DNA of 64,000 nt from Aureococcus anophagefferens (taxonomy: Eukaryota; Sar; Pelagophyceae; Pelagomonadales; Pelagomonadaceae): assembly GCF_000186865.1 (NCBI RefSeq), contig NW_008705566.1, forward strand, positions 2,349,699 through 2,413,698, read 5' to 3'. The notes beneath the pieces were generated by a model. It made no database searches. It had not been told where the DNA came from and saw nothing but the letters and a program-made list of their open reading frames with translations. A program made the position numbers and the translations under genes. Within the stretch, counting starts at the first letter, position 1. Each line of letters starts with the position of its first letter. Below are positions 12,153-64,000 of the stretch, in pieces.

Positions 12153-14068
12153 TTACCCGGTCATCACGGGCCGCAGGCGGGCCTTGGGCGTGGAGCCGAG
12201 GACGGGCCCGAGGGCCTCCTTCGGCTTCGGCGGCGGCGGCGACCCGAGCGCGGGCGGCGACCCGAGGGGCGCGAGCTTCAGGGGCGCGAGCTTGAGCGCC
12301 TTCGGCGGCGACCCGAGGGGCTGGAGCTTGCGGCCCAGGGCCGGCGGCGTCGCCGCCTTGCCCAGGGGCGCCAGCGTCGCGCCGGCCGCGAGGCGCCGCG
12401 ACGGCGTCGCGGCCGTCTCCGACTCCGGCTCGGGCTCCGCGGCGTCGTCCGGCGGCGCCCTCGCCGCGGCGGGCGGCGGCGCGGCGACGGGCGCGAGGGC
12501 CGCCGGCTCCGGCGCCTTGGCGGCGCCGTCCTCGCCGAGGAGGAGCGGCTCCGGCGCCTTGGCCTTGCGCGCCGCGAGCGCGGGCAGCGCCTCGGGCGCC
12601 GGCGCGTCGAGGGCGCGCGGCGGCGGCGCCTCGGCCGCCGCGGCCGCGGGCTTGGGCACGGGCGCGAGCGGCGCCGCGTCCGCGGCGCGCGGCCGCGCGG
12701 GCTTCGGCGCGGCGCCCGGCCGCCCGCCGACGTGGGCGACGACGCAGGTCAGGTCGTCCGGCGAGAGCCGCGCGTCGAGGACGGCCTCCGCGGCCTTTGC
12801 GAGGACGAGGTGCGCGACGGTCCACGGGTCGTCCTGGCCCTCGCAGATGGTCGCGAAGGCGTCGCTTCGGAGCGCGTCGAAGACCGACTCCGACGCCAGG
12901 ATGAGGAACTCGTCGCCGGGGCCGAACTCGTGCTCGACGACGGACGGCTCCGCGACGACGCCGAGCCTCTTCGCCGCCGGGTCGCCGAGGCACCTGGGCG
13001 GCAAAAGGGTGATTCAACGTCGCTTCAACGTGAGTGTGCCGCGCGCGCGCGTTCCGAGAAAAAAGCATCCACGCTTCGAGACCGTTCCGAGAGATGATCG
13101 CTCGTCCAAAAATTAGCCGACGAGTGGAAAACGGCCGAGATAGGAGCCTTTGAAGTTGGGAATTTCGCTTTCTTTTGCTGCCCTGCGAGGCACCGCGCGA
13201 AGGAGTAGCCGGGCAGCGTGGACCCCTCCTCCGCCGCGTAGAGCCGCGGCCGCCGGTCGCCGCCGTCGCCCGCCTCGAGCACGCCCAGGAGCGCCTCGTC
13301 GGAGCCGAACGCGCCTGGCGCCGCGCGCCGCTCCGCCGCCGCGCAGACGACGGCGCCCGCCGCGCGCGCGCGGTCCGCCTCCGCGGCGACGCTCAGCACG
13401 TGGCGCGGCGCGAGCTCGCGCGCGTGGCAGCCCTGGCGGTCCTTCGTGACCAAGACGACGCCGCAGGTGCCCAGGAGCGCGCAGTACGCGCGGTCGCCGC
13501 TCAGGAGCGCGGCCGCCGCGGAGCACCCGCTCCGCGCGCCGCAGACGCGCGCCTCGTCGAGGGCGCCGTCGAGCGCGGCGAAGGCGTTGGCCAGGGCCGC
13601 CGGCGGCGTCGCGTAGGGCGCGGACATGGCCCGCCGGACCAGGTGCTCCATGCGGTCGCGCGCGAATTTCGCGCACTGCTCGCCCTGGGGGCCGTGGCCC
13701 TCGCAGAGCGCGGCCCAGGCCGCGCGGTCGCCGGAGCCGTCGGGCGCCTTGGCCGACGACGACGCGTTGACGACGAAGGTCGACCGGCAGGGCGCCCGGC
13801 CGGGCGCGAGCGACCGCAGCGTCAGCGCGCCGACGGCGCAGGGCCGCCCCGCGACCGCGGGCGTCGGCGTCGCGCCCAGGCCCAGGAGGCTCTCGCGCAC
13901 CTGCGCCGGCGCGAGGCCCGCCTTGGCGCAGAGCTCGACGGCGAAGGACTTCTTGAAGAACGACTCCCCGAGCGCGAGGCGGCCGTGGGGCAGCCCCGTG
14001 CTCTCGCCCTTGCGGGAGACGGCGTCCTTCGCGGAGCTCCGGTGGCCCTTGGAGAGGCCGCCGCCCAT
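12153..14068 (-). CDS. PP2C-fold protein lacking metal-binding Asp residues (probable pseudophosphatase)
   Basis: Exons are 14068-13194 and 12993-12153 (571 residues). The N-terminus MGGGLS fits myristoylation. PP2C landmarks are present but altered: LCEGHGPQGEQCAKF stands where active enzymes have DGHG; LGTCGVVLVTKD stands where GD(S/T)RA is expected; ASESVFDAL replaces ASDG(L/V)WD; only SPDDLTCVVAHV keeps the final Asp. Loss of several Mn/Mg ligands predicts no phosphatase activity. The C-terminal ~200 residues are Ala/Pro-rich repeats (APLGSPPALG type). The frame is broken by one 200-nt introner intron. Removing it joins …FAR to CLGDP exactly and restores the expected strand-loop of the fold. 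Confidence 0.85.
12994..13185 (+). mobile_element. Introner element (copy 1) forming an intron in the PP2C-like gene
   Basis: The 192-bp element starts CTGGGCGGCAAAAG and ends CTTTTGCTGCCCTG, imperfect inverted repeats. It is flanked by a perfect 8-bp duplication CGAGGCAC at 12986-12993 and 13186-13193. Read along the host gene (minus strand) the intron is 13193-12994: donor GT lies in the upstream duplication (GTGCCTCG) and acceptor AG is the last two bases of the element. Splicing leaves one duplication copy and the original reading frame. The internal core (CGTCCAAAAATTAGCCGA) is shared with the other copies; it lies antisense to the host gene. No coding capacity. Confidence 0.93.
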
Positions 14069-14364
14069 GGTCGAAGAGGGGCGGCCAACGGCGCGGGCGG
14101 ACCCGCGCCCGGGTGGGGGCTTCCGAGAGCTCGGGCCGCTTAAACCGGCGCACCGGAGAGGGCGCAAGGCGACGCTGCTTTACATGGGGGAGTCGTCCAT
14201 CTAAAACTCCCCCAACATCGGCTTCAACAACATCGCGTCGACAAAAGTGCTACCCAAGAGGCTGCCAGGCCGCTCCACGCGCAGCTTGCAGTGAGCTGCG
14301 AGCGGAGGTCCACCGGACTCACTCAAATTCCCCCTCGTGAGCTCCGAGCGGACGTTCGCTGGAC
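14069..14364. other. Intergenic with duplicated gene 3' end
   Basis: The space lies upstream of the PP2C-like gene and downstream of the glycosyltransferase gene. Apart from the 46-bp tandem repeat annotated separately, no gene or RNA is seen. Confidence 0.4.
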
Positions 14365-14382
14365 TCACTTAAATTCCCCTTC
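14291..14382. repeat. 46-bp tandem duplication spanning a stop codon
   Basis: Two ~46-bp copies (14291-14336 and 14337-14382) both start GTGAGCT(G/C)CGAGCGGA and contain GGACTCACT(C/T)AAATTCCCC. The second contains the last codons and TGA of the minus-strand glycosyltransferase. The first is a duplicate lying just beyond the stop and would read GEFE-stop. Confidence 0.85.
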
Positions 14383-16044: not shown

Positions 16045-16111
16045 CGTCCCAAGGCGACCACCAGAGATGGGCTGCTTTAAGTTGAAGGACAACTAAATTA
16101 GAGAAGCCGCG

Positions 16112-17506: not shown

Positions 17507-17588
17507 AATACGAGTTCTTTCGCGAGCGCGCTTTAAAAGAGCGGCAAGAATCTTGTGTTTTCTACGTTTCCCGAGATAAATTTGGGCT

Positions 17589-20405
17589 ATGATGACACGG
17601 TCTCGGGCCGCAATGGGGCTCCCGCTGCCCCGCGGCGCGAGGCTCGCCGTGCTCCTCATGGCGCTCGTGCCCGCCGTCGTGCCCGAGGAGACGGCGCCGT
17701 CGGCGGCGCCGACGGAGCTGCCGGACAACGCGACGGCGGCGCCGACGCTGGCGCCGACGCTGACGCCCTACCCGACGCCCGTGAGCCTGGCGCCGACGAC
17801 GTGGAAGGACTGGTTCCGGAACCACAGGCCGACGCGGTCGCCGACGGTGTCGCCCGCGCCGTCGCTGCTGCCGAGCCCGCTGCCGACGCCCATGCCGAGC
17901 GTGCTGCCGTCGCCCGCGCCGACGATGGCGCCCGTGCACACGCACGCCGCGCGCAACGAGAGCGACCTGCGGGACATCATCGCGAACGACCACGACGTCG
18001 ACATCGTCGAGGACATCTTCCTCGAGAATACGGTCATTACCGTCGACTACGGCGGCCAGATCGGCTCGACGGACGGCGTCAAGCTCAGCGGCAACGGCAC
18101 GGTGCAGATCCTCGTCGTCACGGGCACGGGCGGCCGCGTCGAGGAGGACCGGCGGCGCCTCGAGGAGGACGGCGAGCTGCCCTACGCGTCGGCGCCGACG
18201 TCGGAGCTCACGCTCTACAACCTCGAGCTCGAGGGCGGCTACGGCGAGGGCCGGGGCTGGAAAAGAGCGCGACATTCCCAAGGCTCCTATCTCGGCCGTT
18301 TTCCACTCGTTTTGGCTGATTTTTGGACGAGCGATCATCTCTCGGAACGGTCTCGAAGCGTGGATGCTTCATTTGGAACGCGCGCGCGAGGAACGCTCAC
18401 GTTGAAGCGACGTCGAATCTCTCGTTTCCCGCCCAGGCAAGGGCGGCGCGGTCCTCGTGCGGTGGCCCGCGGCTTTGGTCGTCACGGACTGCACGTTCAC
18501 GGCCAACGCGGCGCCCTGGAACGCGACGGCGGGTTTGGACCACCTGCACTACTCGTCGGGCGGCGCCATCTACGTCGACCGCACGACGGCGCTCGTCTAC
18601 TACTCGCTCTTCCGCGAGAACACGGCCGCGGGCCACGGTGGCGCGATCGCGCTCGTCGGCGACGGCCGCGACACGTCCTACCTGCGCGTCCAGAGCTGCA
18701 AGTTCAACGAGAACGAGGGCCGCCTGGCCTCGGCGATCTACGTCTACCACGGCGACTCGTACTTCAAGTCGAACAAGGTCTACGAGGACCGGATCCCGCA
18801 GACGTTCGCGCTCGGCTTCAACGCGACGGCCTACGGCTGCCACAACGACGAGCTGAACATCACGGCGGGCGAGGAGGCCTTCGCCTACTGCGACGCGGAC
18901 TCGAGCAGCGGCATCAACGTCGTCGAGGCGCTCATCGCGCTCATCGCGATCGTCGTCGGCTGCGTGCTCGGCGGCGCGCTCTGCTGGTTCGTCGCCGCGC
19001 CGAAGTCACATCTCCAACTCGACTTCAATGCGAGCGTACGCGACAGTTTCGACGCAAAGTCTTCGGCCCTGCTTGAGAAGCTCAACGAGAGCGATCGATT
19101 CGTCCAAAAGTCGGCCGAATCAACTTCGATGTGACCGAGCTCGAGAAGTTTGGTCGGGACCGCCCAGACCAATTCGGCGCAGGTTCATCGCGCACCTCGT
19201 CTACGGGTACTGCGTCCTGGGCTGGAAGTGCCCGGACCTGGGCGCCATCGGGGGCACGATCTACTTCGACGAGCGGCGGGGCCAGTGCTTCTGCGGCGTC
19301 TTCTTCGTGACGACGTTCTCGTTCATGTCGATGATCTTCGCGTACCTGCCAGGGCAGGGAAATTGTGATTCAAGTTCGCTTCAACGTGAGTGTGCCGCGC
19401 GCGTGCGTTCCGGAAAAAGCATCCACGCGTCGAGAGCGCTCCCAGAGATGATCGCTCGTCCAAAAATTAGCCGAAACGAGTGGAAAACGAACGACCGAGA
19501 TACGAGCCTCCAAAGTTGGGAATTTCGCACTCTTTTCCTGCCCAGGTACCTCGCGGGCCAGACGGACCCGGAGCTCGTGTCCGTCTTCGGCTTCGCGCGC
19601 CTCCAGTCGACGGACGCGCTGACCTACCTCGTCGTCGGGCTGAGCGGCTACGTCGTCGTCGCGGACGTCCTCGCGGACGACGACGCGGGCGTCGCGGACG
19701 ACTCGCTCACGGGCACGAAGGACTACGTCGCCTTCGAGGTCGGCGAGGTCGACGACGACGCGGCGGGGTCGGCCTACGACTGGGTCAACGCCTGCGGCGA
19801 CGCCGGGGCCCTGGCCCAGGGCGCCATCTACCCCATCGTCTTCGTCAAGTTCGTCGCGTGCTTCGTGCTCTACAAGCGCGTCCGCGCCCGCGCGGGTTTT
19901 CGACGCGCGCGCGGTTTCGCGAGAGGTGTTTCGCTCAGGGTCGAGAGCTCGAGGAGAGACAAGCGCTCGCCACATCGACGTCGATTCGACCGCGCTCGAG
20001 AGTCGAAGTTTCCCCCAAAACCCGAATTCCCCGCAGGTGGACACGGAGGCCGACTCCTGGGTCTGGAAGTTCGTGGGCATCGGCGTCGAGCTGTATTCGA
20101 CGCTGCAGATCCTGGGCATGCTGCTGAACTTCTCGCTGAACTGCCTCATGGAGCTGCCGACGGGCGAGTTCTACATTCCCGTGGACGCGGACGACGCCGC
20201 GGCCGTCAACGTGCTCGACGACGCGGCGGCGGAGGCCTACGCCTACGCCGTCGACGACCCGGGCGAGTCCTACCCCGTCAACTTCAACACGCCCTACACG
20301 TCCTTCTTCTGCACCATGCTCAGCGGCCTCGCGTCCATGTTCGTCGCCTACGTCCACTTCCGCACGCCGACCTGGAACTCCGAGCTCTTCGAGCGCGACT
20401 GGTGA
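17589..20405 (+). CDS. Beta-helix surface protein with C-terminal membrane segments; five exons
   Basis: Exons 17589-18243, 18437-18986, 19183-19341, 19546-19879 and 20037-20405 give an uninterrupted 688-residue protein. It has a signal peptide (ARLAVLLMALVPAVVPE) and a Thr/Pro-rich stalk (APTLAPTLTPYPTPVSLAPT). A right-handed beta-helix-like region follows, with Gly-Gly-Ala-Ile repeats (SSGGAIYVDRT, GHGGAIALVG) and N-glycosylation sites, as in POMP/pectin-lyase-like proteins. Then come at least four hydrophobic segments (e.g. VVEALIALIAIVVGCVLGGALCW, split by an intron). It is probably an exposed cell-surface or vacuolar protein. Three of its four introns are introner copies and the fourth may be a decayed one. 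No enzymatic residues are recognised. Confidence 0.85.
18252..18436 (-). mobile_element. Introner element (copy 2)
   Basis: The 185-bp element has ends CGGGGCTGGAAAAGAG and CTCGTTTCCCGCCCAG, which are inverted repeats with three mismatches. The 8-bp flanks are GCGAGGGC (18244-18251) and GCAAGGGC (18437-18444). The intron is 18244-18436 with a GC donor in the upstream flank and AG at the element end. Joining …GGYG to KGGAVLV keeps frame. The core is in reverse orientation to the host gene. Confidence 0.92.
18995..19182 (+). mobile_element. Introner element (copy 3), variant termini
   Basis: The 188-bp element starts CCGCGCCGAAGT and ends AATTCGGCGCAG (inverted repeats). Flanks are GTTCGTCG (18987-18994) and GTTCATCG (19183-19190). 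The intron is 18987-19182, GT-AG. Splicing joins …GGALCW to FIAHLVYGY, inside a membrane segment, in frame. The core (GTCCAAAAGTCGGCCGAATC) is related to that of copies 1, 2, 4 and 6, but the termini differ. Same orientation as the gene. Confidence 0.92.
19350..19545 (+). mobile_element. Introner element (copy 4)
   Basis: The 196-bp element starts CAGGGCAGGGAAAT and ends CTCTTTTCCTGCCCAG. Flanks are GTACCTGC (19342-19349) and GTACCTCG (19546-19553), six of eight bases matching. The intron is 19342-19545, GT-AG, and joins …SMIFA to YLAGQTDPE in frame. It has the same termini as copies 1 and 2 but sits in the opposite orientation relative to its host gene, showing that either end can supply the acceptor. 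Confidence 0.92.
19880..20036 (+). other. 157-nt GT-AG intron, possibly a decayed introner
   Basis: Donor GTCCGCGC and acceptor CCCCGCAG join …FVLYKR to VDTEADSW in phase. The element-like part starts CCGCG and ends CGCAG. Only four of eight flank bases match (GTCCGCGC against GTGGACAC), and the core is not clearly recognisable, so an introner origin is uncertain. Confidence 0.7.
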
Positions 20406-20643
20406 GGGAACGGATTAAGTGTGGGAATTCGCCCGGGCGCCCCGGGGGTGTGCCAGTGGTCAGTCTATGTTTTTAGTTTTGGTATAAACAGGCGAAGGGT
20501 TCGCGCCGGCGCGGCGCGGCGCCCCGGGGGGCGGCGCGCGCGACGCGGCGCGCGGTGTTTTGCGGGTGCGAACGGGGGCCGCCGGGGTCGGCGGCGCCGT
20601 CGAGCTTGGAGGTGGGCGGGGGCTCGGGAACCGGCCCGCCGCC

Positions 20644-23220
<2,577 letters not shown>

Positions 23221-23322
23221 CGTGCACCGAAAGTGCTCTCCGAAGCACGATGGGCTGCATCTCTATGGGTTGCTCTCCGAGGCGATGATGCGAGGCTGCG
23301 GCGCCGCGGCGCATGCGGCGTG

Positions 23323-27288: not shown

Positions 27289-27369
27289 GGCGCGACCGGA
27301 CCATCCCCGCCGCCGGGCCTTCGCCGCCGCGGCCGCCCCGCCCTTTAAACTGACACCCCACCACCGCTC

Positions 27370-29998
27370 CTAGATGACGGGCAGGTCGACGACGCAGCCG
27401 AGCGGGGACGCCTGGAGGAACGCGGCGCTGACCTGGCCCTCGGTCGCGGCGTCCGCCGCCCGCGTCGCCCGGAGCGCGACGCCGCCCGAGTCGGGCACGT
27501 AGAGGGCGGCGCCCGTCGCGCCCTTCTTTCGCGCGAGGAACGGCGGCGCGGCGAGCGGCGTCGCGAACGTCGCGTGGGTGAAGGCAAAGTCCTCGCGCTG
27601 GTACCACGACGCCAGCGCGCAGGCGTCCGCGCGGCCGTGCGCGATGGGCAGCACGAGCGTCTTCAGGTAGTGGGGCGCGACGACGTCGTCGTCGCGGAGG
27701 CGGACCAAGACGTCGCCCCGCGCGCGGTCCCGGACCGCGGCGGACCCGTCGCCGCGCGCCGCGACGACCCGCACCTTCTTCCGGGGCACGTCGCTCGCAA
27801 CCCGGCGGGGCTTGCGCCGCATCTCCTTGACGACGACGGTGGACGGGGCCACGGACGTGCCGGCGACGGTCGAGAAGTCGTCGTAGAGCTCGGGCCGGAC
27901 GTTGACGTCGTCGCGGTGGAGGAGCGCGTTTGCGCGCGCCTGCTCCTCGTCCTCCTCCTCGTCGTCGTCGCCCTCCTCGACGAGTTCGAGGAAGTCGTCC
28001 TCGACGACGAGCTCGCGCCAGAGCTCGTCGTCGTCGTCGTAGCGGAGCACGAGCAAGTCGACGAGCCGCGCGTCGTAGTCGAGCGCCGAGAAGACGCGGA
28101 AGGCGTTCGTCACGCCCGCGGGCGTCGTCCGTTTGGCGTCGACGACCACGGTCACCTTGGGCCAGGCCACGCTCCCGGCGGGCTTGTGGTCGTCGCTGAT
28201 CATCGTCTTCGGCGGCGCGAGCGCGTCGCGCGCGCGGTTCCTGCGGGTTTTGACGCGGTCGACGCGGTCGCGGAACTCGTCGCGGTTCGGCGCGCGGCGC
28301 CACCAGGCGAGCGCGCCCTCGCAGTCCGCGACGGCGACGAGCGCGTCGCCGAGCTCGAGGTCGCAGGCGCCGCGGTTGCCTAAAAGCGTCGCGAGCGCCG
28401 CGGCCCAGCGCTGGCCCTTGGTGAGGCCCTCGGGGAACGCGGACGCGTCCTCGACGGGGCACGCGGCCCGGCGGCAGCAGGCCAGCGCGTCGTCGTAGAG
28501 CGCTCGCGCGTCCGCCATGCCGTCGCGCTTCGACGCTTTGTCGCGGCTCCGCTGGGCGCTCGAGAAGCGCCGCGAGCCCCGGGTCTTGTGGTCGACCCAC
28601 TCCTCGCCTGTGTGCAAATCAACCAGTGAGCTGGGACGTCGGGGCCAAACTTTGAAATTCTCTAGCTTGGTCAAATCGACGTCGATTCGGCTGACTTTTG
28701 GACGAATCGATTGCTCTCATCGAGTTCTCGAAGCACAGCGGAAGTGCTCGTGTCAAAACATTCGAATACGCTCACATTGAAGTCGAGTTGAATATTTGAT
28801 TTGCACACAGCTCCTCGCTCGGCTTGCCCTCGCCGCGGTCGATCGCGCGGAGCTTCACCTTCTTCGGCGCGGCCTTGGGCGCGCGGAAGAACTCGGGCTT
28901 GTCGGCGTCCCTGATGGCGCCGGACTCCCACTTGGCCTGGAAGTCCATGGCGCCGTTCACGGGCGCCCACCTGGGCACGCGCTTGCGGCGCTCGTTGACG
29001 GCGACGAGCGGGTCGAGCATGCGGTCGAGGTACGCGCCTCCGTCCACGGGGAAGATGTTCGGCGTCCCGTAGGCGCCGACCTTTCTCAGGTAGGCCCGCG
29101 CGTCGTAGCCCACGGTCGCCGCGGCGGGGTCCACGAGCACGGGCCTCCCGCGGCCGCCGCAATTGCCCAAAACGCACGCGTACGTGTGGCACGCGACGAC
29201 AAACCAGTCGACGCGCGGCGCCGCGGCCCGGAGCAGCGTCGCGGCGACCATGGCGGAGACGCGGCTGTGGCCGAGCATCCAGAAGTTGTCCGCGTCGTCG
29301 CGCTTCGCGGGCCAGCCGAGGTCGATGCGCTGGAAGCCCATCTCGCGGGGCACGAGCAAATCCGCGTCGTAGTCGTCGTCCGCGGCGCTCACGTCGAGCG
29401 ACACGCAGCGCTTGATGTCGTTTCGCACGGCGGGCAGGTGGGTCGCTGCCCGCAGAGACACGCCCGCGCGCGGCGGCGCGGGCGCGGCGCCGGGGTTGCG
29501 CTCGCGGAGGAGCGAGACGGCCGCGGGGCGGTCCGCGGCTTTGAGGAACGCGACGACGGCGCCGAAGTTCGCCTCGGACGCCGGCGATCCGCCGAGCGCG
29601 TCGGCGACCGTCGCGCCGTTGACCGCGACGAGGAAGTCGCCGGGTCGGATGTCGCCGTCGTCCGCCGCGCCGCAGACGACCGCGGCGCCCCCGAGCGGCG
29701 CGAGCTCCACTCCCAAAGCCCCGTCGACGGTCACCTCGACGGCCTCGTAGTCCGCCTCGAGCGGGCGGCCCAGGGCCGCGTGGAGGTCCTCCGCGTCCCA
29801 GACCTCGCGCAGGTCCAGCGCCTCGACGCCGCCGACGAGCTCCTCGAGGACCCGGGCCTTGCCGTAGGAGCTCAGGCTGTGCGGCTGGTCCTTGTCCTCC
29901 GCCCCGTCGAGCTGCGCGAGGTAGTCCAGCCGGTCCCGCAGGGTCTCGAACTCGAGCGTTGTGTTTGGCGCCTCTGTTGCAGCGGCGAGCTCGGCCAT
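27370..29998 (-). CDS. Multidomain protein with PDZ-like, TPR-like and glycosyltransferase-like parts
   Basis: Exons 29998-28819 and 28607-27370 give 805 residues. Residues ~75-170 resemble a PDZ domain (DGALGVELAPLGG…DIRPGDFLVAVNGATVADAL). A middle region with many Trp, His and Cys (GWPAKRDDADNFWMLGHSRV, VACHTYACVLG) is not recognised. After the splice, DGMADARALYDDALACCRRA … LLGNRGACDLELGDALVAVADCEGAL is TPR-like, and RGDVLVRLRDDDVVAPHYLKTLV resembles the DxD region of family-2 glycosyltransferases. An introner splits the gene between KPS and EEWVDHK. No signal peptide. The start codon is 58 bp from the divergent gene at 30057. The enzymatic role is uncertain. Confidence 0.75.
28608..28810 (-). 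mobile_element. Introner element (copy 5), perfect 15-bp terminal repeats
   Basis: The 203-bp element ends in perfect inverted repeats CTGTGTGCAAATCAA. The 8-bp flanks CTCCTCGC (28600-28607 and 28811-28818) are identical. On the host (minus) strand the intron is 28818-28608: the GC donor comes from the flank (GCGAGGAG) and AG from the element end. Splicing rejoins KPS|EEWVDHK. Identical flanks and perfect termini suggest a young insertion. It has the same length as copy 8. Confidence 0.95.
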
Positions 29999-30056
29999 TT
30001 GCGACGTCGAAAGGCGACTTCGGGCAGCCTCCGGAGAGCCTGTCGTCCATGGATCC

Positions 30057-31572
30057 ATGGTTGAGGTCGATATTGACCAAAACCCGCCCGCGATGTCGAT
30101 GGCTGATGACGCAGAGGCTGCCCCGGCCGAGCCGGAGACCGTGGGCTCGCGGGCGGAGCCGACGCGGAAGCTGAAGCGCGCCTGCGTGCTGCTCCTCGGG
30201 TCCCACGGCGACTGCCTGCCCTTCCTCGACCTCCTGGAGAATATTAGGGACTTCATGACGCCGTGCCTCTTCTGCAGCGAGGAGCAGGTGGAACTGGTCG
30301 AGAGCCGCGGCTTCGAGGCCGTGCCCTGGATGTCCATCGCGCAGTTCAACCGCGAGAAGCCCGACGTCTGGCGCCACCTCGGCATGCCGTTCGTCAAGGT
30401 CTGGTTTTCTTTCTTCTGCCAGCGCGACGTGATCTCGTCGATGACGGCCAAGGTCATCGCCGCCCACGAGAAAGAGCCCTTCGATCTCTTCTTCTCGCCG
30501 GGGAACGCGGACTTCATCGCGCGCGGGCCGGCGCCCGACGGACGTCCGCGCGGCGCGCGGCGACGGCCCCGTCCGCAGGTACCTGCTCCACGACAAGATC
30601 CCCGTGCCCTACGTGCGCCTCGACGTCGTCGAGTTCACGCCGAACCCGCACGCGCACCCCATCGTCGACGTGCGCTTCGTGCCGTCGTTCCTCATGCCCG
30701 TCGTCTGGCGCGCGTTCTACGCGTCCGTCCACGGCGTCGTCATGGACAGCGGCTACGCCGAGGCCTGCGAGGCCCACGGGCGGAAGGTGTTGACGGCCGG
30801 CGAGATGTACGCGAAGCAGCTCAACACGCCCACGGTCATCGGCAACGACTTCTCCGCCGCGCGCGTGGACCGCGGCATCGCCGAGGGCGGCGTCTGCAGT
30901 TTGGGCGGCGCCTTCGAGGACCTGGGCACGCCGACCTACGGCGCGCACGTGCTCTTCACGCCGCGCTGGACTTATAGGCCCGTGGAGGTGCCGTCGGACG
31001 CGCAGCGAGAAGCGGTAGACGCCTTCCTCGCGGAGCAGGGCGCCGCGGGCCTCGTGTGCTTCGGGTCCATGGTCCTCGTCGAGGAGACGGTCGCGGCGCT
31101 GCTGGCGTGGATCGAAAACTTCGACGGCGCGGTGATCGTCATGCGGGGCACGTCGAAGCTCGAGAACAATCTGATCGCCGCGCTCGAGGAGCGGAAGCTG
31201 CCCCGCGTCTTCCTCCTCCTCGAGGACTGCCCCCACGCGTGGCTCTTCCCCAAGTGCTCCTGGCTAATGTGCCACGGCGGCATCGGCACGACGACGCTCG
31301 CGCTGCGCTGCAAGCTCCCGACGCTCGTCGTGCCCTGCGTCGCGGACCAGGAGCAGACGATGAACGACCTCGTGAACCGGGGCCTCTCCGTGCGCATGCC
31401 TGCGAGCACGAAGGTCACGGCGCCCATGCTCGACTACGGCGTCACGGCGCTACAGCGCGACCACGCGGCCAACTGGAAGGCGCTCCCCGACGAGCCCGAG
31501 GTCGACTACAGCGCCATCGAGGCCTTCGTCACCAAGCACACGGCCACGGGGCGCTACGAGGGGCTGCACTAG
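30057..31572 (+). CDS. Sterol/lipid UDP-glucosyltransferase-like protein (GT1/GT28), one frameshift
   Basis: The ATG at 30057 leads to LLLGSHGDCLPFLDLLENI, the N-terminal GT-B motif. The C-terminal half has the nucleotide-sugar signature CHGGIGTTTLALRCKLPTLVVPCVADQEQTMNDLV (His, Gly-Gly, Thr and the acidic DQ pair), typical of sterol 3-beta-glucosyltransferases. Near 30540 the reading frame shifts by one base between …ADFIARGPAPDG and …RGDGPVRRYLLHDKIPVPYVRLD; total length is 3n+1, so one base is extra or two are missing. No GT/GC-AG intron gives the correct phase. It may be an assembly indel. It would glycosylate sterols or other lipids on cytosolic membrane faces. Confidence 0.75.
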
Positions 31573-47900: not shown

Positions 47901-48275
47901 CTGCGCGTTCATGTTGTAATGCGTGCAACCAGCGTAGGCACAAAAGAGCTCCGACATGTCCGTCACGGTCGACGTGTCCCAGGTCGAGACGTGCCCGTAC
48001 GTCGTAGTCGCCGCGCTCGAATCCGCGAGCCATGCGTCGACGGCGGTCTCGAGGTCGGCCTTGTCCGCGAAGCTGTACGAGGTCTGGAGCCGCCTCTTCT
48101 TCGGCGCGCCGCCGTCCGCGGCGCGCTCGGCGGGCCGCTCGAAGGACGACGTCTCGAAGACGCCCGCCCGCCGCTCGTTCCGCGCCTCGCGCGCGTCCCG
48201 CAGCCCCGAGACCCCGCCCGAGATCGTCAGGAGCACGAGGCAGCAGCACATGATGCGATAGCATGACCCAACCAT
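44931..48275 (-). CDS. BspA/DUF285-repeat surface protein with discoidin-like and multi-pass membrane regions
   Basis: The protein has 1114 residues from the ATG at 48275 with a signal peptide (CCCLVLLTISGGVSG). Two blocks of BspA-type repeats follow, each unit like FNQDIGGWDTSSVTDMS plus a short variable part; each block starts with SYSFADK…ETAVDAWLA and ends with a Cys-rich cap (VADCGVTFSSTC). Next is a ~150-residue discoidin/F5-8C-like domain (DAWLQIDFGASYGVDEVYVFNR). A Pro/Thr stalk and five or more hydrophobic segments (VAYSILLMVATIYNLI, LALVVASVYRG) end in a cytosolic tail. It is probably a surface adhesion or recognition receptor. The strong 99-bp periodicity of the DNA comes from these repeats. 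Confidence 0.85.
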   Translation of the reverse strand: MVGSCYRIMCCCLVLLTISGGVSGLRDAREARNERRAGVFETSSFERPAERAADGGAPKKRRLQTSYSFADKADLETAVDAWLADSSAATTTYGHVSTWDTSTVTDMSELFCAYAGCTHYNMNAQSFDDDISAWDTSAVTDMNFMFSFAYAFNQDIGGWDTSSVTDMSWMIAYAYAFNQDIGGWDTASVADLNGMFANAYVFNQDIGAWDTSSVTDMGWMFRSAGAFDQDIGAWNTASVTSMSEMFRINDAFNQDIGAWDTSSVTSTDSMFEGASAFDQDLGWSLSCSVSTSGFASSAGCTVADCGVTFSSTCSYSFADKSELETAVDAWLANSSAATTTYGHISTWDTSAVTDMSGLFSIHPRYTTFNDDIGAWDTSSVTDMSSMFVRADNFNKNIGGWNTSSVTDMSSMFSGAWAFDQDIGAWDTSAVTDMRAMFYNANVFDQDIGAWDTSSVTSMFSMFLSANAFDQDIGAWDTSAVTDMSRMFNDADAFDQDIGAWDTSAVTGMSGMFYRASAFDQDLGGWDTSSVTSMVNMFRTNPAFDQDIGAWDTSSVTSMVNMFDGATTFDQDLGWCFSFSDPGIGGSCSVADCGITFASSCLPPTAAPTLERLPINAGCRKIPRVSASMSTIGWGCGAELCIDNSYSSHESCYGGGCHSNEGTDAWLQIDFGASYGVDEVYVFNRANCCWDRLDFFEIWVGETSASLPSSGARDVLSSSATLCANATAPNQREVDPLLVHCGAHGRYLTLVLPGEDREINLNEVAACTYEPTAAPTAAPAPTPTLPPTTSPAPSPASTPRPTSAAPLFSEEALEKMVKRKRAKWYLVAYSILLMVATIYNLITSDAGEVAQGGAGLFLGERQKRLILTLSLLSWSSSFLFLHELYLSGRTPLAATATALLGGSVGGSAYYYARCVRDRYYLDADEHAKAYYVHTCFELLVPFEMELMPLLPWSLETNNANRIAAADGFPSKEIARVSFAALVVREVLELALVVASVYRGERLEVTGVINFVITAFDLARIFATRCCCRPHGCCVVAARRLLAKPAAVETRQYSAGELQLAPVASRHDDPRREYFDVHERISSPAQQEPRWFSPAASTPDPLIVPEDSSGPGDVAL

Positions 48276-54068: not shown

Positions 54069-54250
54069 GGCTGTCGCAGCGCTCGATGCTCGAGCGGTGG
54101 CGCTCTCGACGGTGCTCGCGGTGGCGCTCTCGCAGGTGCTCCTCGAAGTGGAGATCCTGGCCGCCAGCGCAGGCGAGCGCGCCGCGATGGCCGCCAGTGG
54201 CGGCCTACCCTCGAGGCCTCGGCACTAGTGCTCGGTCACGCGAGCGCTCC

Positions 54251-55861: not shown

Positions 55862-55962
55862 CGCGACGGGCTGCCCTTACATCGGCAAACGGATGTTCAA
55901 GATAGGTACTTCTTTGGCTTCACTTGGGCAGCCCACGCGATGGTGCCGTGATTTTGTTGGCC

Positions 55963-57045: not shown

Positions 57046-57055
57046 AAAAACCGGT

Positions 57056-58432
57056 TTACGAGACGGGCGCGATGGCGCCGCAGGGCGGCCAGGGTTGGAC
57101 CGTCCCGATCTTCGCCGCGCCGGAGACGGCGGCGCACTCCCAGTCGCCCGTGCCGACGTGTACGTCCTCGAGGTAGACGCCGGCGATGGGCGCGCCGTCC
57201 TGGCCCGTGAGGCGCACGGCGTGCTGGGAGCAGGCCGCGTCGCGCGCGTCGATGCGCACGAAGGACACGTTCGCCGTCGCCGGCAGCGTCGCGTTCCAGG
57301 AGGCCGGGCACGACGGGTTCGGCGACTTGTAGTGGCCGTCGACGAGGATCGCGTCCTCCAAGGCCGCGCCGTCGGCGGTCATGTCCTCGAAGCGCACGTT
57401 GCGCACGTAGCCGCCTCGCGTCGGGCCCGTCTTGACGTGCGCGATGCCGTTGGCCTTGCCCAGGATGTTGACGCGCTGCACGAGCACGTCCTCGACGCCG
57501 CCGGACATCTCCGAGCCGATCGCGATGCCCGCCTTGGAGCCCGTGCAGTTGACGTCGCGGATCGTGATGTTCCTCGACGGCTTCCCGTAGGCGACGCCGA
57601 AGCAGTCCCAGCCGGACTTGATGGCGACGCAGTCGTCGCCGCCGACGTACGTGCTGTGTTCGACGAGCACGTCGCGCGCGCTGTCGGGGTCCCAGCCGTC
57701 GGTGTTGGGAGAGTTGTCCTTGGCGGAGATGTGGACGTTCCGCACGTGGACGCGCTCGCTGTCGTAAAAGTGGTTGTTCCAGAAGGGCGAGTCGCGCATG
57801 GACAGGTCGTAGATGCGGATGTCCTTCGAGTACATGAACTCGATGAGGTGCCCGCGCGTGACCGTCATCGAGTGGACCTGGTCCCACCAATACTGGCCGT
57901 TGCCGTCGAGGACGCTCGTGGGCCCCTCGCCCTGGATCGTGACGTCCTCGACGTGCTCGCCGTGGACGAGGGACGTGTAGCGCGGGCCCGGGTGGTCGCG
58001 GCCCTGGCCGTAGGACGGCGCGCCGGGAATCAGCGGCCACCGGGCCGCGTCCGCGACGCCGGCGACGGTCGCGTTCGCGGCGATGCGCAGCGTCGTGTGC
58101 GACGTCAGATTGATCGGCGCGATGAGGCAGCGCGCGCCGGGCGGGACCAGGATCGTCGTGTGCGCGTGGGCTCCGGCGTGGGCGAGCGCCGCCTCGAAGG
58201 CCGCCGTGTCCTCCGTCGCACCGTCGCAGCGGGCGCCGTAGCTGGCGACGGAGATGGTCTCTTTGGCGGTAGTGACGGCGGCGCGGGCGCCGTAGCTGGT
58301 CTCGGGTTTCGTGGCGGTGGTGACGGCGGCGCGGGCGCCGTAGCTGGCGACGGAGATGGTCTCCTTGGCGCTGGTGACGGCGGCGGTGGCCAGGAGAAGG
58401 AGCATTGAGTTCGGACCAAGGGCGTGAACCAT
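57056..58432 (-). CDS. GH28 polygalacturonase-like pectinase, secreted
   Basis: The protein has about 458 residues from the ATG at 58432 (alternative 58405), with a signal peptide (LLLLATAAVTSA). The parallel beta-helix hydrolase signatures are intact: SPNTDGWDPDSARDV (NTD), GGDDCVAIKSGWD (DD catalytic pair), GIAIGSEMSGGVEDV (usually GHG; here the His is replaced), and IAHVKTGPTRGGYVRNV (RIK-type). GH28 enzymes hydrolyse pectic or related uronic-acid polysaccharides. The N-terminal leader is followed by three copies of a SYGARAAVTTAKETISVA-type repeat. It ends only 11 bp from the stop of the convergent cyclophilin-like gene. Confidence 0.87.
   Translation of the reverse strand: MVHALGPNSMLLLLATAAVTSAKETISVASYGARAAVTTATKPETSYGARAAVTTAKETISVASYGARCDGATEDTAAFEAALAHAGAHAHTTILVPPGARCLIAPINLTSHTTLRIAANATVAGVADAARWPLIPGAPSYGQGRDHPGPRYTSLVHGEHVEDVTIQGEGPTSVLDGNGQYWWDQVHSMTVTRGHLIEFMYSKDIRIYDLSMRDSPFWNNHFYDSERVHVRNVHISAKDNSPNTDGWDPDSARDVLVEHSTYVGGDDCVAIKSGWDCFGVAYGKPSRNITIRDVNCTGSKAGIAIGSEMSGGVEDVLVQRVNILGKANGIAHVKTGPTRGGYVRNVRFEDMTADGAALEDAILVDGHYKSPNPSCPASWNATLPATANVSFVRIDARDAACSQHAVRLTGQDGAPIAGVYLEDVHVGTGDWECAAVSGAAKIGTVQPWPPCGAIAPVS
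58258..58372. repeat. Coding repeat in the GH28 N-terminus
   Basis: Blocks with GTGACGGCGGCGCGGGCGCC and CGTAGCTGG occur three times in about 115 bp. They encode repeated ASYGAR/VTTA units just after the signal peptide. Confidence 0.75.
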
Positions 58433-58471
58433 GCCACGAGCCTCCCAAGCGTCAAGACCCAGGATGTTGCA

Positions 58472-58511
58472 CGGCACGATCTGCTTGGCACGGCACGATC
58501 TGCTTGGCTGC
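58472..58511. promoter_or_regulatory. Tandem 18-bp repeat in a bidirectional intergenic region
   Basis: GGCACGATCTGCTTGGCA is repeated twice head to tail within the 92 bp between the GH28 start (58432) and the COG6 start (58525). A shared promoter role is inference from position only. Confidence 0.4.
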
Positions 58512-58524
58512 TCGCGAGGAGACA

Positions 58525-60686
58525 ATGCTCGAGCCCGACGTCGACGACGGGCCGACGGGCCCCGCGGCGGACCTGCTCCGGCGCAAGGTCAAGGAGACGC
58601 TCGAGCTCGACCTCGACGCGCCGGAGCTGCACGACGCGCTCGAGGTCGTGAGCGAGTTCTGGCAGGGCAACACGGCGGAGAACCGGCGGAACCTGCGGAG
58701 CGACCTCGAGCGGCGCACGGTGGAGCAGGCCGAGGCCTTCGTGGCGCACTACCGTCCCCTGCGCGACGCGCTCGCCGGGAGCGAGGCCATGGCCGCGGAG
58801 CTCGAGGCGCACGTCGCGGCGACGGCGAGGGAGCTGCGGGACCGCGAGGCCGAGAACCGGCGCGTCGTCGCGGCGCACGACGCCCTCGTCGCGGAGCGCG
58901 ACGCGCTCGCCGCGAAGCGCGAGGCGACGGTCGCGTTCCTCGCGCGGTTCCAGCTCGGCGAGCGCGAGCGCGACGCGCTCGCGGCCGGCGACTTCGCGCG
59001 GGCCGAGGACGCCGACGACTTCTTCGCCGCGCTGGCGCGCGCGGCCGGCGCGCTCGCGGACCTCGACCGCGCGCTCGCGGACGGCTCGCGGTGCTTCGCG
59101 GACGCCGTCGGCTGCGGCGAAACCGTGCGGCCGTCGGACGGCGTCGGCGCGGAGCTCCGGGACCTGCTCCGGGAGGCGACGGACGGGGCGCACGAGCGCC
59201 TGCTGGCCTTCGCGCTCCGCGCGCTCGGCGGCGACGCCACGACGGCCGCGGACGCGGCCGCCGCGGCCGCGGCGTGCGAGGCGGTCGCGCAGGACCCGGG
59301 GCAGGAAAAGGGTGATTCAACGTCGCTTCAACGTGAGTGTTCCGCGCGCGCGCGTTCCGGAAACAGCACCCACGCTTCGAGAGCGCTCCGAGAGATGATC
59401 GCTCGTCCAAAAATCAGCCGAAACGAGCGGAAAACGACCGAGATAGGAGCCTTTGAAGTTGGGAATTTCGCACCCTTTTGCTGCCCAGGCAAGACCCGCG
59501 GAGCGCTCCGCGGCGCGCGCTCGAGGCGCTCCGGCGATCGCCGGCCCTCGACGCGCGGTGCCGCGACGCCTGCGCGCCCGCGCGGCGCGAGCTCTGCAAG
59601 GCGCGGCTCCGCGACGCGCTCGGCGCCGCGTCGCCCGGCGGCGACCCGGAGCGCTACGCGGCGGACCGCGCGGACACCGACCGCCGGTTCGGAACGCTCG
59701 AGCTCGGTCGCATCGGAGTCGATTCGGCCGATGTTTGGACGGATCGATCGCTCTCGTCGAGTGCTCGACGGAGCGCCGAAGAGTCCGGTCCACCCCGTTC
59801 GCCGAAGAGTCCGGTCCACCCCGTTCGCCGACGCTCGCGGTGACGTCGGGTCGACGTTTCGATTCCCACGCAGGCGGCGGACGTGCTCGCGTGGACGCAC
59901 CAGGCCCTGGCGTCCGAGGGCGAGGTGCTCCGGGGCCTCTTCTTCTCCGACGCCGCCGGCGGCGACGGCGAGGCGGCGCTTCTAGCGGCCGTCGTCGAGG
60001 GCCTGGGCGAGCCGCTCGCCGCGCGGCTCCGGTCCGCGGTCGCCGCGCTCGGCGGCGACGTCGCGCGCGTCCACGGCGTCGCGCGGCTGCTGGCGTTCTA
60101 CGCGGCCACGTTCCGCGGGCGGCTCGGCGGCGACGCGCTGCCGGCGGCCGTCGCCGCCGTCGCCGACGAGGCGCGAACGGCGGCCGAAGCGGGGGCGAAG
60201 GCGCTCGGCGACGAGGTCCGCGCGTCCGACGTCCGGCGCTTCGGGCCGCGCGGCGACGCGGCGGCGCCCGCGGCGGCCGCGCTGCGCGCCGCGGGCGCCG
60301 TCCTCCGCGCGGACGCGGCGCGGCCCGACGGCGGCGACGACGGCGACTCCGCGGGCACGCTCCTCGCGCTCGTCCTCGACCCGGTGCTGCAGTCCGTCGA
60401 CGCGGCGCTGGACGCCGCGCCGCTCCGCGAGTTCGCGGGGCCGGCGACCGGCGCGGCGGCGGACGCCGTCGGCGCCGAGCCGCGCGGCGGCGCGCCGGGG
60501 TCGGCGGTGGACGCCGCCGCCTGGGCCGTCGACGCCTTCGGCTTCTGCGCGGCCGAGCTCGAGGCGCTGCCGCGGGGCGACGTCGTCGACGCGTACGCGG
60601 CGCGCTTCGCGCGGCGCGCGGCGGCCGCGCTCGCCACGCCCCCAGCAGGTGCGCGTGCTCCTGGACGTCGAGGGGTGAGGGCGTAA
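58525..60686 (+). CDS. COG6: COG6, subunit of the conserved oligomeric Golgi complex; three exons
   Basis: Exons 58525-59288, 59489-59657 and 59874-60686 give 581 residues. NRRNLRSDLERRTVEQAEAF and the following coiled coil, VAFLARFQLGERERDAL, and (across the second introner) ERYAADVLAWTHQALASEGEVLRGLF match the COG6 family. COG6 tethers vesicles recycling within the Golgi. Both introns are introner-type insertions with GC donors, and only when both are removed do the COG6 motifs connect. The C-terminus after residue ~560 is not family-like, and another splice near 60650 (…CCAGCAG|GTGCGC) is possible. Confidence 0.85.
59297..59488 (+). mobile_element. Introner element (copy 6)
   Basis: The 192-bp element has termini CGGGGCAGGAAAAGGG and CCCTTTTGCTGCCCAG. 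Flanks are GCAGGACC (59289-59296) and GCAAGACC (59489-59496). The intron is 59289-59488, GC-AG, and joins EAVA to QDPRSAP in frame. It has the same termini class and length as copy 1 and the same sense as its host gene. Confidence 0.93.
59666..59873 (-). mobile_element. Introner element (copy 7), diverged, with internal duplication
   Basis: The 208-bp element is flanked by GCGGCGGA (59658-59665 and 59874-59881; the match extends to nine bases). The intron is 59658-59873, GC-AG, and joins PERY to AADVLAWTHQ. The core GTCGATTCGGCCGATGTTTGG is the reverse of copy 3's. An internal direct repeat of GCCGAAGAGTCCGGTCCACC (twice, 59776-59826) lengthens it. The termini (CCGCGCGG / CCCACGCAG) are only partly complementary. 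Confidence 0.85.
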
Positions 60687-60889
60687 TACGCGCCTAGACG
60701 CGCGCAGCAACCCTGTAATTTTTCGACCTGTCCTCACTTCCCGCAAAGTTTTCAGAAGTGAGCCAACGACCTTCGGGCGCGGAGGCGGGACCCGACGACA
60801 ACCCAGCGCCGACGCCGCGCGCGGCGGCGCAAGAATCGAACACGCAGACGTACGACTTCACGTGAGAGCAATCGAGTGCGTGCGCGCTT

Positions 60890-61010
60890 CGTCGCGCACT
60901 CGCCGAGCGCACACGACCATCGAAACATCGGTTCGATGTGACGGAGCTCGAGAGGTTTCGACGTTCGGTCGGGCGTCCGGGCGCGAGCGCGTCGCTCCCG
61001 CCGCGCGTCC
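60890..61010 (+). mobile_element. Possible decayed introner
   Basis: TTCGATGTGACGGAGCTCGA at about 60938-60957, followed by GAGGTTT and CGGTCGGGCGTCC, matches the right half of copy 3 (TTCGATGTGACCGAGCTCGA … GGTCGGGACC). No clear terminal repeats or duplication are found, and it lies upstream of the ATG used for the channel gene, perhaps in a 5' intron. Confidence 0.4.
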
Positions 61011-61125
61011 GAGAGCGACGCCCGCGTCTCATCGCCGACCGTCCGCTCGCAGGCGACCGACCGCCATTTGCAAGAGCGAGGCCGTGCCACATCCGCCGGG
61101 CATCGCGACCCCCTACCTTCGTCAG

Positions 61126-64000
61126 ATGTGCCCATCGCCCTGCCTCGCGCCCGCCCCGATGACGAGCCCCGACGGCATGAAAGATGACTGCTTCGAGCCC
61201 GACTGCGGCTTGCGCGGCTACAAGTTCCTGAGCTACCGCCTCGCGCGGGAGGCCGTGCTCCGCGACCGGCCGGGCGTCGTCGCCAAGGACGGGTCGAAAA
61301 CGCCCTACGGCGTCTTCGCCGACTTTGGCTTCCACGGCGCGTCGTGGCTCGGCCGCCGCCGCGAGACGCGTCCGCTCGTGCGCTATGGCCTCGGCCAGCG
61401 TCGAGCGACAGGAGTGTTTTTTCGCGTGAATTTCGCCTGAAGATGTGAATCCGACCCCGTCGCGCTTGGTAGGCCTCGGCATCGACCTTTATTTTAAGAG
61501 CATGAAGGTCTGGCTGCTCGTCTTCTTCGCCGTCTCCGTGCTCTCGCTCGCGCCCCTCCTGGGCTACTGGCGCAACAGCGAGCTGACGGCGGCGCGGCGC
61601 GACGCGTCCGTCGAGGCGCGCGGGCCCTCGGCGGCGTTCTTCGCGCTCTCCGTGGGCTCGCTCGGCCAGTACGCGACCGTCTGCGGCAGCGCGGAGGACG
61701 GCGAGACCGTCGAGCTCAGCTGCCCGGCGCACTACGAGATCCAGGAGGTCTTCGCGCGCGGCGCGGCGTCCGAACGTCGACGTCTCTCGGGCTCGCTCTC
61801 CGCGCGATCTTCGCGTTCGAGTCCGGTCGCGCGTCGCGGCCGCTCGCGTCTCCAGCGCTCGCCGCAGGTACTACGGCGCGCCGGCGGGCGACTGCGCGTG
61901 CCCGGACGCGCAGACCGTGGACTCGCGCGGCGAGTGCCCCGGCGACATGACCCGCGCCATGGAGTGCGAGGGCGGCGACGCCTGCGTCAAGGGGACGACG
62001 GCGCTCGGCGACGCGTGCTGCGCCTTCTCCGCGACGCGCGGCCGCGCGGACTTCGACGGCGTCGACCCGGGGCCGGGGCCCGCGTCCTGCGCGTCGACGT
62101 CGGCGCAAATCGTCGCGCAGGGCGTCTGCCTGGGCCGGCGCGCGTGCGCGCTCGCGGCCGACGGCGACCGGATGTACAGTTGGGAGGACCGGGGCCGCTA
62201 CGCGTCCTGCGGGTCCGAGGACTTTCGCGCCGGCGCGGGGGGCTGCGCGGCGTCGCTCGGCGTCGGCGACTTCTCGGGCTGCGCGGAAACGCGGCGCCTC
62301 CTCGCCGTCGCCTACTGCGGCCGCGCGGAGCTCCGGACGTCGGCCGCGGGCACTACCCGGCTCGACACCTTCGGGTTCCGCTGCTCGCTCCTCGACGCGT
62401 TCTGCGCGTTGCTCGTGCTCGTCGCGTCGCGGTTCCTGCTGCGGACGCAGGAGCGCGCGGAGCGGACCTACGGCACCTACGTCTGCACGCCCGCGGATTA
62501 TACGGTGGCCGTCGACGGCGGCTCGCTGCCGACGGACTACGCGTCGCTCGAGGCCGCGGCGGCGTTGGTCGGCGACCACTTCGAGCGCGTGCTCGGCGCC
62601 CAGGCGCCGGTCATCGAGCCGGGGCCCGTGCGCGTCGCCGACGTCTGCTTCGCCATCGTGAGCGACCGGACGCTCGTCCGCGCGCTCGACGCGCGCGCCG
62701 CGGCCGCGCGGGCCCTCGACCGGTCCCGCGCGGCCGCGGACGTCCGGGAAGCGTTGAAGCGACCGACGGAGCAAGAGGACGAGCCCGCGGCGCTCCGCGA
62801 TGCGTTCGCGAAAGCGTCCGCGGCCGTGCAGGACCTCCTCGACGAGGGCAGCAAGGGCGCGGCGCGCGCGGCCGTCGCCTTCGTGACCTTCGAGACGGAG
62901 GAGGGCTTCCAGCGCTGCCTCCACGCGTACCCGCCGTCCCTGCGCCGCTGGCCGGGCTTCTTGCAGCCGCGGCGCCTGAAGCTCCAGGGCAAGGCCGTGC
63001 GCCTGAGCCGCGCGCGCGAGCCCCGGAAGCTCCGCTGGGAGAATCTCGGGCTGCCGCTCGGCGCCCAGGTCTGGCGGCGCGCGCTCAGCGCGCTCGCCGT
63101 GCTGCTCCTCCTGCTCGCGACGTCGGGCGTCGTCTTCTGGGCCCGCAAGTTCGAGCAGGGCATGGTCGCGCAGCACCCGGCGCGCGACTGCGGCGTGTTT
63201 CCGCGCGTCGTCTCCGACGGCGACGCGGCGTTCGCGTTCTCGCCCGCGGGCTCGGGGACGCTGACCATGGCCGACGTCGTCAAGGACGAGCGCTTCGAGG
63301 ACTACGGCCTCCCCGCGGGCGAGACGGGCAAGCTCGGCTGCTTCTGCGACGCCGTCGCGGCGGACGCGTCGCCGCGCGCGGCGACGCGCTACCGCTTCCG
63401 CGACCCGGAGACGCGCGGCGCGCTCGGGACGTGGTGCCGCGGCTACTACCGGGACGTCTGGCTCCTGCGCGTCGTCCGCGCGATCGCCGTCGCCTTCGTC
63501 GTCGCCGTCGAGGTCTCGCTCAAGGTCCTGGCCAAGTGGACGACGACGTTCGAGCGCCACCCGTCGACGGTCGACGCCTGTGTGGAAATCAAATCTTCAA
63601 ACCGACTTCAATGTGCGCGTAATCGAACGGTTTGGACCAGACTCTTCGGCTATGCTTCGAGAACTCGACAAGAGCAATCGATCCGTCCAAAAATCAGCCG
63701 AATCGACTTCGATTTGACCGAGCTAGAGAATTTCAAAGTTTGGTCGGGACGTCCCAAACCAGTGGTTGATTTCCACACAGGTCAACGCCGACTTCTCGAC
63801 GACGCTCAAGATCTTCGTGTCGTCGACGATCAACACGGGCCTGCTCGTGCTGCTCCTCAACGGCAACGTCGACGCCGTCGCGCCGCGCTTCGACGCCTAC
63901 GGCCTCGACGGAGACCTACGCGTCCGCGCGACGGACACCTACGGCCTCCTCGGCGGCGCCTACTACGACTTCACGGCGCCGTGGTACGCGTCCGTCGGCG
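61126..64000 (+). CDS. OSCA/TMEM63-like (CSC1-type) membrane channel, 3' truncated
   Basis: Exons 61126-61387, 61473-61755, 61868-63569 and 63781-beyond 64000. An N-terminal cytosolic motif (GLRGYKFLSYRLAREAVLRD) is followed by YGLGIDLYFKSMKVWLLVFFAVSVLSLAPLL, a first membrane helix typical of the family. A long Cys-rich extracellular loop follows, then a helix (LDAFCALLVLVASRFLL) and a cytosolic RRM-like domain with VAFVTFETEEGFQRCLHAY and LRWENLGLPLGAQVWRRALSALAVLL, as in OSCA proteins. Further helices continue to the window end. Relatives are mechanically or osmotically gated cation channels. The start ATG is uncertain because a possible decayed introner lies just upstream. Exon phases all agree. 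Confidence 0.72.
61388..61472 (+). mobile_element. Short duplication-flanked intron (85 nt)
   Basis: Perfect 8-bp flanks GCCTCGGC at 61388-61395 and 61473-61480; the insert is 77 bp (CAGCGTCGAG … CTTGGTAG). The GC donor lies in the first flank and AG ends the insert, exactly as in the introners, and splicing joins VRYG to LGIDLYF. The common core and clear terminal repeats are absent, so this may be an internally deleted introner or a different insertion type. Confidence 0.75.
61756..61867 (+). other. Intron, about 112 nt, donor ambiguous
   Basis: The acceptor CCGCAG|GTACTACG at 61867 is firm because the downstream frame changes there. Two donors fit the phase: GCGCGGCG at 61756 (GC) or GTCCGAAC at 61768 (GT). 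Confidence 0.7.
63578..63780 (+). mobile_element. Introner element (copy 8), perfect 15-bp terminal repeats
   Basis: The 203-bp element has perfect inverted ends CTGTGTGGAAATCAA. Flanks are GTCGACGC (63570-63577) and GTCAACGC (63781-63788). The intron is 63570-63780, GT-AG, and joins HPST to VNADFSTTLK in frame. It is the sister of copy 5: same length, same terminal class, same orientation relative to the gene. Confidence 0.94.

Follow-up and report, generated by a model that had tools for sequence, protein, structure and literature searches.

Introners in a 64-kb window of the Aureococcus anophagefferens genome and a broken terminal palindrome in one of their two types

Few sources of mass intron gain are as well supported as introners. 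Those of Aureococcus anophagefferens were reportedly described by Huff, Zilberman and Roy in Nature in 2016, and are said to have the anatomy of non-autonomous DNA transposons with a target-site duplication (TSD). By the same account one splice site is carried by the element, the other being co-opted from the duplicated target. PMC9481584 cites a length of about 210 bp for the A. anophagefferens introners, with which it compares the introns, likewise about 210 bp long, of Pelagomonas calceolata. For other species, Gozashti et al. (2022; PMC9860276) describe donors from TSDs, and GC donors making up 0-50% of a given family.

The window is the whole 64-kb stretch of DNA that was analysed (62% to 78% GC in 2-kb tiles). 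A sequence-only reading of it had pointed out eight repeats with a shared core, interpreted as introners. The core CGTCCAAAANTNRGCC is indeed found once in each of these repeats and nowhere else in the window when up to two mismatches are allowed, while 100 shuffles gave a mean of 0.41 and a maximum of 2. An independent search for the element ends arrived at the ends first given. All eight elements have C-N-G at both ends, terminal inverted repeats (TIRs) and 8-bp target duplications, and all end with AG in the sense of the host gene. The duplications had been claimed for every element and are present in all eight, but five of them are imperfect (Table 1). Read in the direction of the host gene, the duplication starts with GT or GC, and each predicted intron comprises one copy of the duplication and the element, from G[T/C] to AG. 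The ends of the element at 63578 are compatible with splicing in either sense, the coding strand there being the plus strand. The window also contains two arrays of a 75-nt tandem repeat at 46469-47941 (13 register copies of a 300-nt reference), which probably code for a repeat protein, and two 225-nt copies at 20969-21421 that are 96% identical and 228 nt apart.

Table 1. Introner elements, predicted introns and host reading frames in the window.
Feature	Position	Strand	Remarks
Introner type A, 192 nt	12994..13185	-	TSD 8/8, CGAGGCAC at 12986-12993 and 13186-13193
Predicted intron of 12994 element	12994-13193	-	Donor GT; in PP2C gene
Introner type A, 185 nt, core on minus strand	18252..18436	+	TSD 7/8
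Predicted intron of 18252 element	18244-18436	+	Donor GC
Introner B-like, 188 nt	18995..19182	+	TSD 7/8
Predicted intron of 18995 element	18987-19182	+	Donor GT
Introner type A, 196 nt	19350..19545	+	TSD 6/8
Predicted intron of 19350 element	19342-19545	+	Donor GT
Introner type B, 203 nt	28608..28810	-	TSD 8/8; palindromic TIR CTGTGTGCAAATCAA
Predicted intron of 28608 element	28608-28818	-	Donor GC
Introner type A, 192 nt	59297..59488	+	TSD 7/8; first of two in COG6
Predicted intron of 59297 element	59289-59488	+	Donor GC
Introner B-like, 208 nt, core on minus strand	59666..59873	+	TSD 8/8; second in COG6
Predicted intron of 59666 element	59658-59873	+	Donor GC
Introner type B, 203 nt	63578..63780	+	TSD 7/8; palindromic TIR CTGTGTGGAAATCAA
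Predicted intron of 63578 element	63570-63780	+	Donor GT
Host frame 1 (stop to stop), PP2C phosphatase	12156..14179	-	PF00481, E 2.3e-23
Host frame 2 (stop to stop), membrane protein	17580..20473	+	Three introners
Host frame 3 (stop to stop)	27373..30634	-	
Host frame 4 (stop to stop), COG6 of the conserved oligomeric Golgi complex	58378..60683	+	Two introners
Host frame 5	61587..63999	+	Runs past the window end

A whole-genome search with the core had been proposed as a check. In the 49.05-Mb assembly (86 contigs), in which the window lies at G000:C6:2349699-2413698, exact copies number 2,889, of which 1,455 are forward and 1,434 reverse; the reversed core, as a control, occurs once in each direction. 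The genome offers thousands of introner copies of graded age. A census covered the window, seven close relatives of the 12994 element (L002-L008), sixty loci of 901 bases from contig C1, and twenty 10-kb loci, of which four surround hAT matches and the other sixteen are again from C1. Contig C1, young type A copies and close relatives of 12994 are therefore over-represented in it. The census comprised 116 non-redundant cores; 104 were delimited, and four of the other 12 lie at the edge of a locus. The two copies of the duplication agree at 8/8 positions in 79 elements, at 7/8 in 19 and at 6/8 in six, which is at least 7/8 in 98 of the 104. In 100 of them a G[T/C] donor at one duplication end is combined with AG at the end of the element furthest from it. 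Three of the four that break this rule have 6/8 duplications and only 6-8 of 14 matching TIR positions, and are probably mis-delimited. The fourth, L054 (core at 493, minus strand), is a clear exception: this well-delimited type A copy has an 8/8 duplication, GGTGCGCG, and a TIR match of 12/14, and a G[T/C] oriented to serve as donor is missing from the duplication. Twenty extra copies were chosen by their similarity to the 63578 element; 15 could be delimited and five not, and the rule was found in 14 of the 15, the exception (L106) having poorly matching ends. Two further observations were set aside. The cores along contig C1 seemed strand-biased, with 74 forward and then 26 reverse among the matches listed, which was attributed to the listing. 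Three IMG/VR contigs with a longer core pattern were considered as viral carriers, but matched over only 19-43 bp and had no element ends, and the matches were ascribed to chance.

Very probably, the eight repeats are A. anophagefferens introners, that is, TIR elements mobilised in trans that carry their AG and obtain their donor from the duplicated target. Short non-coding TIR transposons would be moved by a cut-and-paste transposase making 8-bp target duplications. When one of them is inserted into an exon so that the duplicated 8 bp reads GT or GC at one end in the sense of the gene, the duplicate would become the splice donor and the AG at the end of the element the acceptor. Splicing, which like the transposase we infer from the DNA, would then remove the element together with one duplicate and leave the coding sequence unchanged. 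That the repeats are introners with DNA-transposon anatomy, as assumed from the start, is supported by the TIRs, the 8-bp duplications, the donor/acceptor rule and the restored frames described below. The elements had also been called a non-autonomous family. The basis for non-autonomy is their lack of coding capacity, and the family is refined here into at least two lineages with different end logic. Against the explanation as a whole count L054, which breaks the donor rule, the 12 cores that were not delimited, the bias of the sample, the two possible readings of the PP2C proteins at 12994 and the negative outcome of the search for an autonomous element, both given below.

Type A elements (58 sampled) are mostly 192 nt long and start with C[A/T]GGGCAG, while type B and B-like forms (42 sampled) are mostly 203 nt and start with CTGTGTG or variants of it. 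The types share their interior, the majority sequences being 59% identical over 180 aligned columns. A conserved core hairpin common to both was considered and dropped, as the stems, compared by eye, lie in different registers. The median divergence from the majority sequence is 5.4% for type A and 11.4% for type B, and a neighbour of at least 97% identity is found for 20 of 58 and 2 of 42 copies, respectively; the nearest neighbour of a sampled type A copy is up to 99.5% identical.

It is at their ends that the two types differ in logic. The A of the acceptor is TIR base 2, and in the splice sense it lies opposite base 2 of the 5' TIR. Among the type A copies this facing base is A in 43, G in 11, C in four and never T. 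The base-2 pair is thus broken in 58/58 copies, compared to 39 unpaired of 638 at positions 4-14 (p 7e-59). The corresponding figures for type B are 12/42 at base 2 and 42/462 at positions 4-14 (p 6e-4), positions 1 and 3 being omitted for both types since they are fixed by the delimiting rule. Genome-wide, 1,001 type A copies have otherwise consensus ends, copies with G or C at base 2 (15/58 in the sample) falling outside this count. Of these, 995 are asymmetric with one acceptor (508 + 487), six are palindromic and none lacks an acceptor at both ends. The corresponding 357 type B copies include 312 palindromic ones and 45 with another base at the 5' end. Having lost the palindrome at base 2, each type A copy has one acceptor end and is predicted to be spliced in one orientation only relative to the gene, while the mostly palindromic ends of type B would provide an acceptor at both ends and allow either orientation to be used. 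Indeed, type B relatives of up to 95% identity have predicted splice senses in opposite orientations. The nearest neighbour of a type B copy has the same sense label in 15 of 42 cases, with a shuffled mean of 15.7 ('both' counted as a third label), and sense is thus unrelated to descent. For the two end states of type A the nearest neighbour shares the state in 52 of 58 cases (shuffled mean 30.3, largest 45 in 2,000 shuffles), so these states are distinct lineages, and switching of the terminal base X by transposition was rejected as their main cause.

Folding predicts a probability of 0.57 that the acceptor AG of type A is unpaired as found, compared to 0.06 if the facing base is set to T, and the probability is higher as found in 55/58 copies, a rise that is partly trivial as the partner base has been removed. 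The predicted value is 0.07 for the 29 type B copies with T, while the 12 without T reach 0.43 against 0.28 if given T (p 0.09, not significant). The model suggests that the broken base-2 pair frees the acceptor from the TIR hairpin. Tentatively, the symmetry of the TIRs may be in conflict with splicing, the palindrome pairing the acceptor in a hairpin of the pre-mRNA. Type B would then have a buried acceptor but be bidirectional, type A would be exposed but one-way, and breaking the pair would have made the transposon a better intron maker. The directional type A lineage is the younger one and, among consensus-ended copies, the more numerous. An adaptive reading is plausible, but the same counts are expected from a single asymmetric master in which TIR recombination flipped the interior, giving both strand-committed lineages. 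We give this founder effect about an even chance of explaining the asymmetry. It is in line with the two type A states being separate lineages (52/58 against 30.3), and any element that retains one acceptor end can persist. Against it counts that base 2 is unpaired more often than positions 4-14 in type B as well (p 6e-4), even if mutation of T to C alone could raise that number. An adaptive asymmetry would mean that single-base changes turn a transposon into a better intron, and would predict a simple outcome for a minigene.

Whether such elements function as introns can be gauged from DNA, without RNA and in a manner transferable to other genomes, by comparing the donor sense to the coding strand, the frame before and after removal, and the intronic to the exonic copy of the duplication. 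A codon model was obtained by unsupervised training on the twenty 10-kb loci and the window, with none of the sixty short loci included. It was then used to score the flanks, joined to each other, of the 100 copies that follow the rule. In all 93 copies with a single possible splice sense this sense is that of the coding strand, the other seven being type B copies that allow either. The flanks are in frame in 99/100 cases after removal of the element compared to 11/100 if it is retained, and the joined flanks score above the shuffled 99% level in 100/100 cases compared to 85% of 478 tiles. Intron phase tracks the codon availability of GT and GC, and a GT donor in phase 1 is found in 1 of 45 GT copies (background share 0.003 of all GT plus GC). 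GC makes up 79% of GT plus GC on the coding strand, yet only 55/100 donors, so that GT is favoured about threefold. Among copies of the duplication that differ, there are 11 gains of G in the intronic one within donor positions +3 to +5, against a single loss (sign test p = 0.006), numbers that are small and refer to a range picked after the first cases had been viewed, with G at +4 not being a textbook donor base; the extra copies add two gains and no loss. This is a lead towards tuning of the co-opted donor after insertion.

The G[T/C] rule could also be a target preference of the transposase and not the result of unspliceable insertions being lost. The rule holds in 100/104 copies, and all 100 tested flanks look coding even if some 15% of tiles do not, which would fit such a preference. 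Still, as the sole cause it is unlikely, since the G[T/C] end of type A is always found together with the acceptor AG in a manner that matches the coding strand, and neither the preference for GT relative to its availability nor the G gained by the intronic duplicate would be expected. Target preference and loss of unspliceable insertions may act together.

Removal of the elements was said to restore coherent proteins. This was confirmed by Pfam for COG6 (COG6_N, E 2.3e-17; COG6_C, E 4.3e-15, the latter match spanning both junctions) and for PP2C (E 2.3e-23), while host frames 2, 3 and 5 had no Pfam match over the curated cut-off, and the label OSCA-like for the frame at 63578 found no support from Pfam or a PDB sequence search. 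For three host proteins the homologue with the best score bears the name A. anophagefferens, in accordance with the pelagophyte-like genome proposed at the outset. Junctions were compared with homologues for frames 1, 2 and 4, the elements at 28608 and 63578 lying outside these, and continuous homologues were found at 12994, 19350, 59297 and 59666. The PP2C junction falls in codon 292, where removal restores the sequence RCLGD. The same sequence is found in three A. anophagefferens protein entries, whose genes may either splice the intron out or simply be without the insertion.

For COG6, two environmental proteins with 44% identity, P0005 and P0006, run across both junctions without a break. 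P0002 (ENA, 98%, environmental) is continuous at 59297 and then runs into the 59666 intron, with one frame change relative to the window. It looks like the unspliced translation of a genomic sequence where the first site is empty and the second filled, and this one protein suggests an empty site in a relative. With the nearly identical type A neighbours, it is in line with the earlier view that the family is or was recently active. P0004, from strain JL720, contains translated type A sequence at 59297, showing that this strain carries the element. In the 18-20 kb gene, P0007 (JL720) agrees at 19350 and runs into the 18252 element; at 18995 it resumes directly after the acceptor, but from a donor further upstream, so that exon sequence is skipped. 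P0008 skips from before 18995 to past 19350, while P0009 and P0010 (37-39%) are continuous at 19350. At or near GC-donor sites, the gene models of P0001, P0004 and P0007 leave out exon sequence or translate an intron; those models of A. anophagefferens genes in the databases that were compared here cannot be relied on near introners.

Two of the frames depart from their homologues before the stop, 17580-20473 at about 20200, where P0007 continues with DTEADSW, and 58378-60683 at about 60600, where P0003 continues with GAALAREAAS. These departures suggest further introns without the core at both places. Among the A. anophagefferens records, P0008 and P0012 are found on a contig of 1,332,990 bases and P0007 and P0013 on one of 1,472,732 bases. 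Proteins of two window genes are each found on both contigs, and P0007 and P0008 are both named JL720. The strain could be heterozygous and the contigs its haplotigs, which would help in studying presence and absence of introners.

An RNA-based route, in which intron RNA reverse-splices into transcripts and is then copied back into DNA, has been proposed for fungal introner-like elements. The copies studied here act as introns by prediction, and nearly all those sampled lie in coding sequence in the splicing sense, as such a route would give. It is nevertheless highly improbable, since introners of that kind would lack TSDs and TIRs and keep a single orientation, while 8-bp duplications and TIRs are present here, and type B relatives of up to 95% identity in opposite orientations are not expected from copying of intron RNA. 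The elements might even be ordinary, unspliced repeats that disrupt genes, but the agreement in sense (93/93), the restored frame (99/100) and the COG6 and PP2C domains retained across the junctions leave next to no room for this.

The hAT elements have an 8-bp TSD, and in this the sampled introners match a hAT-derived MITE. The transposase families searched were hAT (PF05699), MULE, KDZ and PF13359, and in the part of the genome covered no autonomous element with introner TIRs was found. PF05699 gave four matches in the readable part of the genome. The 3-kb loci showed no similarity to introners, and the TIR motifs of types A and B were both missing from the four 10-kb loci around these matches, in which shorter and looser motifs do occur. 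One place (L012/L016, G000:C6:240586-240753) has a long open hAT-like transposase frame of 1217 aa, 724 aa of it from an ATG in L012, with no introner TIRs nearby; the 724-aa frame matched no Pfam family at 0.001. A repeat-rich 5.4-kb segment with a hAT-like match is 99% identical between contigs C1 and C13 (L017 306-5733 and L018 560-5988), and no element ends were seen in it. MULE gave no match, with controls matching in four genomes, while the zero matches for KDZ are a weak test as its controls likewise gave none. PF13359 (DDE_Tnp_4) had four matches at three places, in open frames (G000:C1:1844908-1845419, C6:2536846-2537241 and C34:12456-12965). The usual TSD of this family is 2-3 bp, which does not fit 8 bp, and it was rejected as the mobilising transposase.

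The closest known system is that of Huff and colleagues from 2016, with which the window elements probably share the species (going by the names of the host proteins), and with which they have in common the transposon anatomy, the TSD, the splice-site scheme and the length of about 210 bp. The features of those introners are found here as 2,889 copies, TSDs of at least 7/8 in 98/104 together with TIRs, and donor co-option in 100/104 copies and in 8/8 in the window. According to PMC9860276, the introners of Symbiodinium microadriaticum likewise have TIRs, a carried acceptor and a donor from the TSD, but their TSD is 4 bp and not 8 bp as in the window elements (Gozashti et al., 2022). Family 4 of an Aureococcus sp. 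TARA genome belongs to the same genus and has the same 8-bp TSD; as its Fig. 2F entry describes it, it brings along both splice sites, and the transcript is lengthened by 12 bp (PMC9860276), whereas the window introners have the donor in the TSD and add nothing. The Amoebophrya introners (PMC7789003) also have inverted repeats at the intron ends and a predicted hairpin joining the exon boundaries, but differ in having non-canonical splice motifs and direct repeats of 3-5 nt, compared to G[T/C]-AG and 8 bp here. An asymmetry that breaks the pairing of the acceptor is named in no title or abstract of the introner literature searched, a search to which the text of Huff et al. 2016 does not belong. 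The introner system is already known, and the asymmetry of the type A ends is possibly its new part.
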